This document shows, piece by piece, positions 5,251-12,872 of a stretch of DNA of 64,000 nt; position 1 is the first letter of the stretch, and every line of letters begins with the position of its first letter. The position numbers and the translations under genes were made by a program. The notes under the pieces are model-generated. The model did not search any database and had not been told where the DNA came from. It saw only the letters and a list, made by a program, of their open reading frames with translations. Location: assembly GCF_000194605.1 (NCBI RefSeq), contig NC_015321.1, positions 3,224,001-3,288,000 on the forward strand, in the 5' to 3' direction. Origin of the DNA: Fluviicola taffensis DSM 16823. Its GTDB lineage: Bacteria; Bacteroidota; Bacteroidia; Flavobacteriales_D; Crocinitomicaceae.

Positions 5251-5281
5251 ACCATCGCTGAAGCTAAGGCACAAGCGATAC
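5251..5281 (+). repeat. Short interspersed palindromic element, GCTAARGC family, copy 2
   Basis: TCGCTGAAGCTAAGGCACAA followed by GCGA; the outer TCGCT/AGCGA bases can pair. It fills the space between the -7 box and the TPP aptamer, so it would be the very 5' end of the thiamin leader RNA. Confidence 0.6.
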
Positions 5282-5283
5282 CA

Positions 5284-5365
5284 AACTTTAGGGGTGACAG
5301 TCAGCCGACTGTCTGAGAAATACCCTTTGAACCTGATTTGGTTGGCACCAACGTAGGGAAAAGTT
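5284..5365 (+). promoter_or_regulatory. TPP (THI-element) riboswitch
   Basis: Contains the conserved aptamer blocks in order: GGGGTGAC, CTGAGA, AATACCCTTTGAACCTGAT and ACGTAGGGAA. The P1 helix can be drawn between AACTTT (5284-5289) and AAAGTT (about 5360-5365). It is the known thiamin-pyrophosphate-sensing RNA and stands directly upstream of a full thiamin operon. About 36-48 bases separate it from thiS; no strong terminator hairpin is obvious there, so control may act on translation. Confidence 0.96.
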
Positions 5366-5401
5366 CAGATGATCTCTTTTTGGTCATTCCTAAAGTAATT
5401 A

Positions 5402-5623: not shown

Positions 5624-5656
5624 GCTCCCCCTTTGGAGGGGGATTAAGGGGGAGGA
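5624..5656 (+). repeat. G-rich hairpin repeat, copy R1 (thiS/thiC junction)
   Basis: Stem TCCCCCT (5626-5632), loop TTGG, AGGGGGA (5637-5643), then a spacer TTAA and a trailing GGGGGAGG block. The plus strand carries four G runs (quadruplex-capable). Same family as the copies at 8125, 11486, 12294, 12337, 12801 and 12843. Confidence 0.85.
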
Positions 5657-7540: not shown

Positions 7541-8163
7541 TGCTCATCGTCATTTCCGATAGCGATTTTAGACCGGATGAAGCAGTGATTGTGAATGAAT
7601 TGTTTCAAGCTGGTTTGGATTTGTTTCACATTCGAAAATATGGAGCAAGTGAAGAGGCGTTATTGAAATTAGTTGATTCGATTGATGCCAAAAATTACTC
7701 CAAGTTGGTTTTACATCATGACCATGAATGGGGCAAAAGTATCGGTTTAAATCGGTTTCATTATTCAGAAAAAGATCGAAAAACGTGGTACGAAGAGGAT
7801 TGGAAAGGAATGAATTCAGAATGTATTTATTCTACTTCTGTTCACAGTGTAGAAGAGTACAACGAGTTAGCGAATCATTTCTCTTACGCCTTCCTTAGTC
7901 CTGTTTTTGATAGTATTTCGAAATCGGATTACAAAGCAGTGAAATTTGATTTTTCAAAACGCCAGAATAAAGAAACAAAATTGATTGGTTTAGGAGGAAT
8001 TCAAGCCGATAATGTGAATCAAGCAATCCAAATGGGATTTGATGGAGCAGCATTATTAGGTGCAATTTGGAATAATCCCAATCCGATTAATGAATGGAAA
8101 TTGTGCAGGGACGTGATTTCCCAATTCCCCCTTCGGAGGGGGATAAAGGGGGAGGAAGTTTAA
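7540..8163 (+). CDS. ThiE/TenI-family protein, divergent (probable thiazole tautomerase-like)
   Basis: A 207-residue TIM-barrel of the thiamin phosphate synthase/TenI superfamily. It keeps GLDLFHIRKYGA near the N-terminus, LSPVFDSISKS in the phosphate/product loop and LIGLGGIQADNV plus GFDGAALLGAIW at the C-terminal phosphate site, but lacks the Asp-rich DGVHLG segment that the second ThiE in this operon (8935) has. With a canonical ThiE in the same operon, a TenI-type role (thiazole tautomerase) or accessory role is the better inference. The last ~12 codons run through a G-rich repeat (8125-8158), giving the tail FPLRRGIKGEEV, which is probably not part of the fold. Confidence 0.8.
8125..8158 (+). 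repeat. G-rich hairpin repeat, copy R2 (inside the 3' end of the TenI-like gene)
   Basis: TCCCCCT-TCGG-AGGGGGA (8126-8143) then TAA and GGGGGAGG. It lies within the coding frame of the preceding gene and supplies its last residues; thiD starts 29 bases after it. Confidence 0.85.
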
Positions 8164-10377: not shown

Positions 10378-11556
10378 ATGGATTTTAAATCACTTTTTCA
10401 AAACACCAATTGGGATGAAACCAAAGCATCCATCTACGCCAAAACAGCTGTGGATGTGGAGCGCGCTTTAAATGCTTCCAAAAGAAATTTAGAGGATTTT
10501 AAAGCATTGATTTCTCCTGCTGCAGCACCTTATTTGGAGCAAATGGCACAAATGAGTCACGAGCTCACTAAAAAACGATTTGGAAAGACCATTCAACTCT
10601 ATGCTCCCATGTATTTGAGCAATGAATGCAACAATATTTGTACTTACTGCGGATTTAGTTTCGACAATAAAATTCTTCGTAAAACATTGACTGATGAAGA
10701 GATTCTGCAAGAAGTAGCTTTTCTCAAGTCAAAAGGGTTTAACCATGTGTTATTGGTAACGGGTGAAGCGAATCGTACGGTTCATGTTCCTTACTTCAAG
10801 CATACCATGGATTTGATTCGTTCTCAATTTGCAAATATTTCCATAGAAGTTCAGCCTTTAGAAACGAATGAATATCAAGAATTGCATGAAGCTGGAGTAT
10901 ATTCTGTGTTGGTTTACCAAGAAACGTATCATCAAGAGGTTTACAAAGCTTATCACCCAAAAGGAAAGAAATCCAACTTTGAATACCGCTTGGATACTCC
11001 AGATCGTTGCGGAACAGCCGAAATTCATAAAATTGGATTAGGAGTTTTATTAGGCTTGGAAGATTGGAGGACAGATTCTTTCTACTGTGCATTGCATTTG
11101 GATTACTTGCAGAAAGCTTATTGGAAATCCAAGTATTCGATTTCATTTCCAAGAATGCGTCCAGCAGAAGGAATTATTGAGCCAAATGTGATTGTTGGCG
11201 ACAAAGAATTGGTGCAATTGATTTGTGCTTATCGCTTATTGAATGAAGACGTTGAATTATCGATTTCAACCAGAGAATCTGAGCATTTTAGAAACAATGT
11301 GATTCCATTAGGAGTTACTACAATGAGTGCAGAATCCAAAACAAATCCAGGAGGATATGTTGTTGAACCAGAATCTTTGGAGCAATTTGAAATCTCGGAT
11401 GAGCGTTCGGTGGAGGAAATCGCAGCTTTGATTCGTAAAAACGGATACGAAGCCGTTTGGAAAGACTGGGATAGGAGCTTCATTTCTTCCCCCTTTGGAG
11501 GGGGACAGAGGGGGAGGACTGATGATTTGATTGTTGAAAGGGATAATCATGTTTAA
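10378..11556 (+). CDS. thiH: 2-iminoacetate synthase (tyrosine lyase) ThiH
   Basis: Radical-SAM enzyme that splits tyrosine to dehydroglycine and p-cresol, feeding ThiG. The CX3CX2C cluster motif is CNNICTYC (C84, C88, C91), followed by a typical radical-SAM barrel with LLVTGEANR and the C-terminal BATS-like region (SISTRESEHFRNNVIPLG, TTMSAESKTNPGGY). The family body ends about at KDWD; the following ~25 residues come from a G-rich repeat (11486-11518) read in frame, so the tail SSPFGGGQRGR is probably an add-on. It overlaps thiF by 8 bases. Confidence 0.96.
   Translation: MDFKSLFQNTNWDETKASIYAKTAVDVERALNASKRNLEDFKALISPAAAPYLEQMAQMSHELTKKRFGKTIQLYAPMYLSNECNNICTYCGFSFDNKILRKTLTDEEILQEVAFLKSKGFNHVLLVTGEANRTVHVPYFKHTMDLIRSQFANISIEVQPLETNEYQELHEAGVYSVLVYQETYHQEVYKAYHPKGKKSNFEYRLDTPDRCGTAEIHKIGLGVLLGLEDWRTDSFYCALHLDYLQKAYWKSKYSISFPRMRPAEGIIEPNVIVGDKELVQLICAYRLLNEDVELSISTRESEHFRNNVIPLGVTTMSAESKTNPGGYVVEPESLEQFEISDERSVEEIAALIRKNGYEAVWKDWDRSFISSPFGGGQRGRTDDLIVERDNHV
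11486..11518 (+). repeat. G-rich hairpin repeat, copy R3 (inside the 3' end of thiH)
   Basis: Stem TCCCCCT/AGGGGGA with loop TTGG, spacer CAGA and trailing GGGGGAGG. It codes for the unusual C-terminal extension of ThiH. Confidence 0.85.
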
Positions 11557-12293: not shown

Positions 12294-12330
12294 CCACCTC
12301 CCTTAATCCCTCCTCAAGGAGGGAAACTAC
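12294..12330 (-). repeat. G-rich hairpin repeat, copy R4 (left flank of DUF559 gene, inverted)
   Basis: On the minus strand: TCCCTCCTTGAGGAGGGA, then TTAA and GGGAGGTGG. It forms an inverted pair with R5 (12337-12370), the pair spanning about 77 bases with matching CCACC/GGTGG ends. Confidence 0.8.
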
Positions 12331-12742
12331 AATCTGCTTCTCCCCTTGAGGGGAGATCGAGAGGGGTGGCTGATCGTAAAACATGTATAACATGTCTAAC
12401 CCGTTCAGAAACCACATCCAAGTTATTAATCACATCTCCTTCCGTAAATCGTATCAAAGTATAGCCTAACGAAATCAACTTATCTTCACGATATCTGTCA
12501 TATTCCCCTTTATTCAAATGAGAATTTCCATCGATTTCTATTATCAGTCCAATTTCTGGTGCGAAGAAGTCAACTATGAAATTATAAATGGATCGTTGTC
12601 TTAAAAACCTTTCTCCTGTTTGTTTTCTCGATAAAAGCCCTTTCCAAATATACTTTTCAGCCTTTGAAACGCTTTCGGTTCTTAGTTCTCGAGCAAACTC
12701 TTTTAGTCTAGGGTTGTAGTGATTGTGGTCAAATCTTTTCAT
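12314..12742 (-). CDS. DUF559 endonuclease-like protein
   Basis: 142-residue protein of the DUF559 family (Vsr/PD-(D/E)XK-like fold). The likely catalytic set is D58 in IYNFIVDFFAP, E69 and D71 in GLIIEIDGNSH with H75, plus an N-terminal Glu in SKAEKYIWKGL (E29); YTLIRFTEGDV closes the fold. The family body ends about residue 122; the tail SATPLDLPSRGEADCSFPP is read from the two repeat copies R5 and R4. The gene lies alone, bracketed on both sides by inverted pairs of the repeat family found in the upstream thi operon. Function is unknown; DNA cleavage at or near these repeats is an inference from gene context. Confidence 0.85.
   Translation of the reverse strand: MKRFDHNHYNPRLKEFARELRTESVSKAEKYIWKGLLSRKQTGERFLRQRSIYNFIVDFFAPEIGLIIEIDGNSHLNKGEYDRYREDKLISLGYTLIRFTEGDVINNLDVVSERVRHVIHVLRSATPLDLPSRGEADCSFPP
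12337..12370 (+). repeat. G-rich hairpin repeat, copy R5 (left flank of DUF559 gene, direct)
   Basis: TCTCCCCTTGAGGGGAGA stem-loop, spacer TCGAG, trailing AGGGGTGGC. It encodes (on the minus strand) the last ~15 residues of the DUF559 protein. Confidence 0.8.
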
Positions 12743-12800
12743 ACTTTAATTTAGACAAAAAAAAGTTTGAATTGCAAAAAAAGATGAGTGATTATTTCAC

Positions 12801-12832
12801 GACCCCACTCAATCTCCCCTCGAGGAGGGAGA
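12801..12832 (-). repeat. G-rich hairpin repeat, copy R6 (right flank of DUF559 gene, inverted)
   Basis: On the minus strand TCTCCCTCCTCGAGGGGAGA followed by TTGAG and TGGGGTC. Pairs with R7 in inverted orientation about 60 bases upstream of the DUF559 start. Confidence 0.8.
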
Positions 12833-12842
12833 CTAAATTAAT

Positions 12843-12872
12843 TTCCTCCCTTGAGGGATCGAGGAGGGTGTC
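12843..12872 (+). repeat. G-rich hairpin repeat, copy R7 (right flank of DUF559 gene, direct)
   Basis: TCCTCCCTTGAGGGA, then TCGAG and GAGGGTGTC; inverted partner of R6. Confidence 0.75.

Follow-up and report, generated by a model that had tools for sequence, protein, structure and literature searches.

The closest described counterparts of the arrangement reported here are the REP/REPIN-RAYT systems (REPtrons), in which a small Y1 (HUH) transposase gene lies between inverted hairpin repeats with a GTAG foot, and the intrastrand triplex motifs (TM) of bacterial chromosomes. According to the available text of Holder 2015 (PMC4666352), the triplex motif occurs in over 260 genomes and the biophysical work was done on the E. 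coli form, TMECO; in strain MG1655 the motifs were seen without a link to mobile elements or gene classes, and the data do not support a stable triplex in vivo. The PIT motifs of Hoyne, as cited there, are also intrastrand triplex motifs. The word endonuclease is absent from the main text of Holder 2015. The CGTC-tagged REPs, a further family, are dispersed palindromic repeats, mostly in inverted dimers, for which no transposase was found according to the available part of Di Nocera 2013 (PMC3733652). Our literature search, conducted mostly without subscription journals and including CCCTCACCC combined with "palindromic", returned no report of a link between DUF559 and a repeat.

Here we describe a family of hairpin repeats found beside genes for DUF559 proteins. 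The DUF559 unit is probably a small REPtron-like mobile element with a Vsr-like nuclease in place of the RAYT. The tail mirror rule at DUF559 repeats and the in-frame DUF559 insertions in long open reading frames are new here.

The DUF559 locus of Fluviicola taffensis

The window, by which we mean the whole 64,000-nucleotide stretch of the F. taffensis DSM 16823 chromosome that was analysed, carries the following features.

5625 to 5655, plus strand: solo repeat, subfamily a, near thi genes
8125 to 8155, plus strand: solo repeat, subfamily a, near thi genes
11487 to 11517, plus strand: solo repeat, subfamily a, inside the 3' end of a radical-SAM/BATS (ThiH-like) ORF
12297 to 12324, minus strand: repeat, subfamily c (TCCCTCCTTGAGGAGGGATTAAGGGAGG), outer left copy, tail outward
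12314 to 12742, minus strand: DUF559 gene, 142 aa, PF04480 match, Vsr-like PD-(D/E)XK nuclease by fold
12339 to 12369, plus strand: repeat, subfamily d (TCTCCCCTTGAGGGGAGATCGAGAGGGGTGG), inner left copy, tail towards the DUF559 gene
12803 to 12827, minus strand: degenerate repeat, inner right copy, tail towards the DUF559 gene (model search E 0.6)
12843 to 12870, plus strand: degenerate repeat, outer right copy, tail outward (model search E 0.006)

An earlier, sequence-only reading of this DNA had placed four repeat copies around a DUF559 gene, as an inverted pair on either side, and all four are indeed there. The left pair is well kept (E 2.8e-8 and 4.9e-8 in a model search of the organism's own genome); the right pair is present but degenerate, its inner copy having been missed by the first hairpin-plus-tail scan. 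The same reading held that the repeats write the protein's C-terminus, and the last codons (12314-12370) do come from the left repeats. The three solo copies that it placed in the thi region are confirmed too, but they are of subfamily a (CCCCCTTTGGAGGGGG), a different type from the copies around the DUF559 gene. A TPP riboswitch (Rfam RF00059) lies at 5280-5376, ahead of the thi genes; Rfam found nothing else between 5000 and 14000, and PADLOC and NCBIfam gave weak or below-cut-off matches.

The gene itself, flanked by a ThiF gene on one side and a DUF1456 gene on the other, was correctly named: PF04480 matches at E 7.5e-24 (84.1 bits against a cut-off of 20.6), the domain spanning 12386-12706. 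The closest named relatives of its product come from Fluviicola. The acidic residues named in that reading, D58, E69 and D71, are invariant in 54 aligned relatives. An AlphaFold model (mean pLDDT 83.6) matches NGO0050 (3hrl, E 5e-7), the homing endonuclease I-Bth0305I (3r3p, 1.5e-4) and, more weakly than these two, Vsr (1vsr, 0.045). By Pfam, predicted fold and acidic residues, then, the protein is a putative Vsr-like nuclease.

The genome, a single contig of 4,633,577 bp, holds one other PF04480 match, a gene between single inverted copies of subfamily a. Searching the genome with the repeat model yielded 26 matches at E up to 1, two of them partial and overlapping, and six of the 26 sit at the two DUF559 genes, a placement in 4.63 Mb that is not due to chance. 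A third inverted pair, of identical subfamily-a repeats (G000:C1:1813105-1813584, equivalent to L011:3107-3584; G000 is this genome), brackets a 99-aa ORF that is not DUF559; its product has a hydrophobic N-terminus and no NCBIfam match.

A comparison of 14 Fluviicola genomes revealed no precise empty site for the window locus. The thiF gene lies near the DUF1456 gene in 6 of the 14. In G030 the matched ends of the interval between them are about 50 bp apart, in G000 and G088 DUF559 lies between the matched ends, and in G129, G104 and G010 another ORF is seen there by eye, so that the point of excision is unreadable at this locus.

Repeats around DUF559 genes in the host family

The host-family set comprised 62 loci: the two of F. 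taffensis and 60 stand-alone DUF559 loci fetched with up to 8 kb on each side, taken from the top of the PF04480 list after long-ORF, weak and fragment matches and one contig-edge match had been left out. With the hairpin-plus-tail scan, 139 copies were located no more than 300 bp from the genes (3.79/kb) and 5 copies at 4-8 kb (0.01/kb), in line with the enrichment that had been predicted. A repeat lies within 600 bp in 52 of the 62 loci, on both sides in 37, and within that distance 10 loci have none. Controls run with the same scans matter here because the hairpin scan was designed on copies seen at DUF559. None of 30 Y1-transposase loci of the host family (10 retrieved by search and 20 picked from its list) has the repeat, in keeping with the earlier claim that the bracketed gene is something other than a RAYT, and 30 GIY-YIG loci of the same family likewise gave 0/30, which rejects GIY-YIG genes as carriers of this repeat.

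The two flanks of each gene were also compared with each other, the control being the same geometry slid along the locus; 61 loci were scored, one being too short, and some had as few as 5 to 10 controls. The inverted flank match beat every control in 43 of the 61, and 32 of the 61 had direct flank matches scoring 40 or more. The association of the repeat with DUF559 is thus well supported.

The orientation of the copies follows a pattern. At stand-alone genes the nearest copies aim their tails at the gene (36/43 upstream, 41/46 downstream), and on sides with two or more copies the outermost tail points away (13/16 and 18/23). Two layouts are commonest, each at 9 loci: a single inward copy on either side, and one upstream copy with a pair on the downstream side. 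In 7 of the 62 loci both sides have at least two copies within 350 bp, and this is the layout of the window locus once its degenerate copy is counted.

Repeat type and protein similarity had been expected to vary together, and they do across 52 loci (Mantel r 0.324, reached in 0 of 2000 permutations), a correlation that includes any effect of shared species history. Where one genome holds a pair of DUF559 genes, the two share no repeat type in 4 of 8 pairs.

Repeat numbers across genomes

A covariance model of the repeat was run on 150 host-family genomes, at most 49 candidates being scored in each, so that the per-genome counts are lower bounds. Of the 56 genomes with a stand-alone DUF559, 55 contain repeats (median 14.5); of the 94 others, 43 do (median 0). 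The difference has a Fisher p of about 1e-12 when kinship is ignored. Ten of the 66 genomes with DUF559 were here counted as not stand-alone, having a long frame or a weak match only; counting every DUF559 match, repeats occur in 62/66 versus 36/84 genomes. The predicted rise of repeat number with DUF559 presence is therefore borne out. The sequence-only reading would also have been contradicted by equal numbers in strains without the gene; numbers there are lower, yet the 43 genomes just mentioned still hold repeats. Among genomes without any DUF559 match, 15 hold at least 10 copies, including one (G080, 100% complete) with 40; several of the other 14 are incomplete. Such genomes could be explained if the gene had been lost and its repeats had survived.

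Spread over other bacteria

Beyond the family, a phylum-wide set of 40 stand-alone loci, drawn from at least about 150 matches listed, had a strict mirror hairpin (defined below) within 600 bp in 25 loci. It was absent within this distance from the other 15, of which 9 show direct repeats in the flanks with scores above 100. At seven DUF559 genes (L198, L212, L261, L263, L285, L288 and L289) the direct flank repeats are very long (scores 163-442), and in six of the seven the strict scan finds no mirror hairpin. All 11 non-Bacteroidota loci among the 80 relatives kept were used, and 7 of them, including members of the Deltaproteobacteria and Planctomycetota, have mirror hairpins within 600 bp. 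So do 8 of 11 plasmid records (Cyanobacteria, Alphaproteobacteria, Deinococcus, Photobacterium), the 11 having been fetched from 29 matches for taxonomic spread, together with one E. coli record; on the plasmids the background is raised, the density being 2.9/kb within 300 bp and still 0.36/kb at 1-2 kb.

In E. coli the DUF559 gene ycjD lies between sapF and fabI, and three records have a TMECO-like motif some 170 bp downstream of it; this is the evidence of one locus in one species. Two strains without ycjD at this place lack the motif in the stretch fetched. Strains L337 and L338 have efflux-transporter genes next to sapF in place of ycjD. Coverage of the stretch made up of the end of sapF, ycjD and the start of fabI reaches 80% or more in 3333 of 5426 E. 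coli genomes.

These distributions bear on an alternative to the mobile-element reading, namely that the repeats spread by replication slippage or through an unrecognised trans-acting enzyme, with DUF559 carried along by recombining copies. In its favour, many genomes that lack a stand-alone DUF559 do contain repeats, and the long direct flank repeats of 32 of the 61 scored loci could be used by homologous recombination. It leaves unexplained, however, why DUF559 genes and not Y1 or GIY-YIG genes have the repeat, why the same link is found in other phyla, and why repeat type follows protein similarity, and we consider it unlikely.

The tail mirror rule

Each repeat consists of a pyrimidine arm, a loop, a purine arm, a short loop and a tail mirroring the purine arm. 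A tail follows each hairpin, with G opposite G and A or T opposite A; read from the alignment, the tail mirrors the 3' arm in this manner in the five main subfamilies. For a count of this regularity, a scan that left the order of the tail letters free was used and informative distinct hairpins were scored. Exact 7/7 mirror matches were found in 46 of 59 hairpins of the host family, 44 of 57 of the phylum-wide set and 36 of 56 in 33 loci beyond these, from other phyla, plasmids and distant Bacteroidota. Tails read in direct order instead gave 9, 11 and 12 exact matches in these three sets; tails swapped between hairpins gave means of 12.9, 8.9 and 7.2 (maxima 21, 17 and 14), and permuted arms means of 9.2, 6.9 and 8.7. 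When T opposite A is disallowed, mirror matches fall to 38, 17 and 9, against 4, 10 and 6 in direct order, and because of this drop the rule rests, outside the family, on the T-A-T triad. When the strict scan is run in direct order, it too picks up copies near 48 of the 62 loci, because runs of G fit both orders.

By this sequence rule the repeats are purine intrastrand-triplex motifs: they have a purine third strand, reverse-Hoogsteen triads and a stem of 6 or more, the agreement being weaker without T opposite A. They are candidates for folding into a DNA triple helix. DNA folding, by a method that cannot model triplexes, yields the hairpins with z-scores from -0.35 to -3.33; in the best fold of a subfamily-a copy the 5' arm pairs with the tail and not with the middle arm.

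DUF559 units in frame within other proteins

Long ORFs with a DUF559 domain were intended as a negative control. All 15 fetched loci with a frame over 600 aa were used, a set that leaves out 27 of at least 39 phylum-wide entries listed with an open frame of 400 aa or more. As a control the set failed: a mirror hairpin lies within 600 bp in 12 of the 15 and is absent at that distance from 3, while among stand-alone loci of the phylum-wide list the figure is 12 of 18. Inspected by eye, most of the long frames run from host protein through a repeat-like peptide, DUF559 and a second repeat-like peptide back to host protein. Ten of the 15 were passed through Pfam, two of these being also aligned to solved structures, and the remaining five (L226, L227, L229, L232 and L239) were judged by eye. 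The Pfam hosts are LeuRS (3), MetH (2), HsdR (2), HsdM (1), a SpoIIE-type protein (1) and a GATase_5 protein with DUF559 at its end (1).

The two alignments to solved structures place 160 extra residues between residues 236 and 240 of LeuRS (L228) and 170 between residues 754 and 765 of MetH (L235). DUF559 sits between domains in the case of HsdR and of the SpoIIE-type protein, and in HsdM no continuation of the host domain was seen after it, so that in these hosts it may be an ordinary fusion. The HsdR protein of L248 has GIY-YIG as well as DUF559 between HSDR_N and the helicase, at ORF residues 251-317. Cases in the same host protein may represent one inherited insertion. The presence of DUF559 inside several unrelated hosts nevertheless points to past movement, which we consider likely, although the insertions leave undecided which enzyme moved it; lying with its repeats in frame within unrelated proteins, the unit therefore looks like a mobile element.

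At in-frame units, most of the nearest copies point away from DUF559 (upstream 7/10, downstream 8/11), as do most of the outermost copies (9/10 and 9/11). The orientations at stand-alone and in-frame units do not yet fit a single fixed boundary of the element, though both are compatible with an outer pair that faces outward. These orientations, and the strict mirror counts outside the family, suit the mobile-element reading less well.

The in-frame cases are also where a second alternative must be weighed, in which DUF559 would be a Vsr-like repair or quality-control nuclease cutting triplex or hairpin obstacles, the repeats its regulatory targets and the domains within proteins ordinary fusions. 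The fold similarity to Vsr speaks for it, as does the DUF559 protein VsrA of Caulobacter, which the available text of PMC12907096 presents as a predicted mismatch-repair endonuclease, required for a DNA-damage response in cells lacking a methyltransferase; these data fit an active nuclease and a repair role alike. A block of 160-170 residues interrupting LeuRS and MetH, with mirror hairpins nearby, is less well explained by fusion, and we regard this alternative as distinctly improbable. That the repeats are ordinary REPs of a Y1 transposase, with DUF559 incidental, is very improbable and largely refuted: F. taffensis does have four PF01797 matches and repeats are commoner in genomes with PF01797 (71/97 versus 27/53), but the 30 Y1 loci lack the repeat, all 12 genomes with a stand-alone DUF559 and no PF01797 hit hold repeats, and GTAG is near the 5' foot of only 1 of 156 host-family copies (and inside 1 of 156).

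A candidate mobile element

Returning to the mobile-element reading, the element would consist of a Vsr-like DUF559 nuclease gene between hairpin-plus-tail repeats. The DUF559 protein, as the putative mobility enzyme, might recognise the triplex structure in single-stranded DNA, for example on the lagging strand, and nick it; the nick would let the gene-bearing unit, or a solo pair of repeats, be copied elsewhere. Solo copies and pairs would then be non-autonomous, MITE-like derivatives. Triplex formation, recognition, cleavage and the route of copying are all presumed here; the earlier reading had likewise put it forward as a conjecture that DUF559 may drive or control the repeats.

The broader proposal would be a new class of autonomous bacterial mobile element present in several phyla, with intrastrand-triplex hairpin ends, DUF559 as mobility enzyme, MITE-like solo repeats that include the TMECO-like ones of E. 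coli, and in-frame insertion of whole units; towards this fuller statement we lean only narrowly. If it is true, a non-transposase enzyme family joins the makers of REP-like repeats, a role for DUF559 is suggested, and the DUF559 domains within housekeeping enzymes are explained. A dedicated nuclease would also make the spread of such repeats testable, in laboratory E. coli too by way of ycjD, if the arrangement of the three other E. coli records holds there.

Comparison with known systems

The CGTC-tagged REPs of Di Nocera resemble the DUF559 repeats in being dispersed and palindromic, but tag and stem differ. A CGTC, TGTC or CCTC tag and a stem starting with AT would define that family; the letters of one of these tags are found near the foot of 17 of 156 copies, and the stems are rich in C and T and do not start with AT, so the assignment was rejected. 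The Fluviicola TGTC-type motif occurs at 1 of 61 DUF559 loci, and CGTC patterns gave two weak matches in 22. Several stand-alone GIY-YIG genes (L340-L369) have direct flank repeats of their own, of other kinds, with scores up to 258. Those of two of the 30 loci, both from the window's genus (L345 and L348, the latter in F. taffensis at G000:C1:409066), have a TGTC tag and resemble CGTC REPs; at 2/30, TGTC-tagged repeats are not a general property of GIY-YIG genes.

I-Bth0305I and Vsr share the fold of the DUF559 model, but the DUF559 gene, unlike theirs, is bracketed by repeats.

With TM and TMECO the repeats share the hairpin with a purine third strand, the G-G-C, A-A-T and T-A-T triads and the occurrence of inverted pairs, and beside ycjD in E. 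coli the second loop of the motif is TTA, as it is in TMECO type A according to the available text of Holder 2015. The motifs described here flank DUF559, whereas Holder saw no link to mobile elements in MG1655; triplex folding in vitro was investigated for TMECO, while the DUF559 repeats are known as sequences.

The REP/REPIN-RAYT systems provide the closest likeness. In both, a small gene is bracketed by inverted hairpin repeats, inverted pairs occur, solo copies are dispersed through the genome in greater number where the gene is present, and repeat type goes with the protein. In a REPtron the gene is a Y1 HUH transposase; here its product is a PD-(D/E)XK-type DUF559 protein matching PF04480. 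The DUF559 repeats lack a GTAG foot, their tail mirrors the arm as a purine strand, and some DUF559 units lie in frame inside proteins. The DUF559 unit thus works like a REPtron, yet, having neither the Y1 transposase nor the GTAG foot, it stands outside the definition of one that was applied here.
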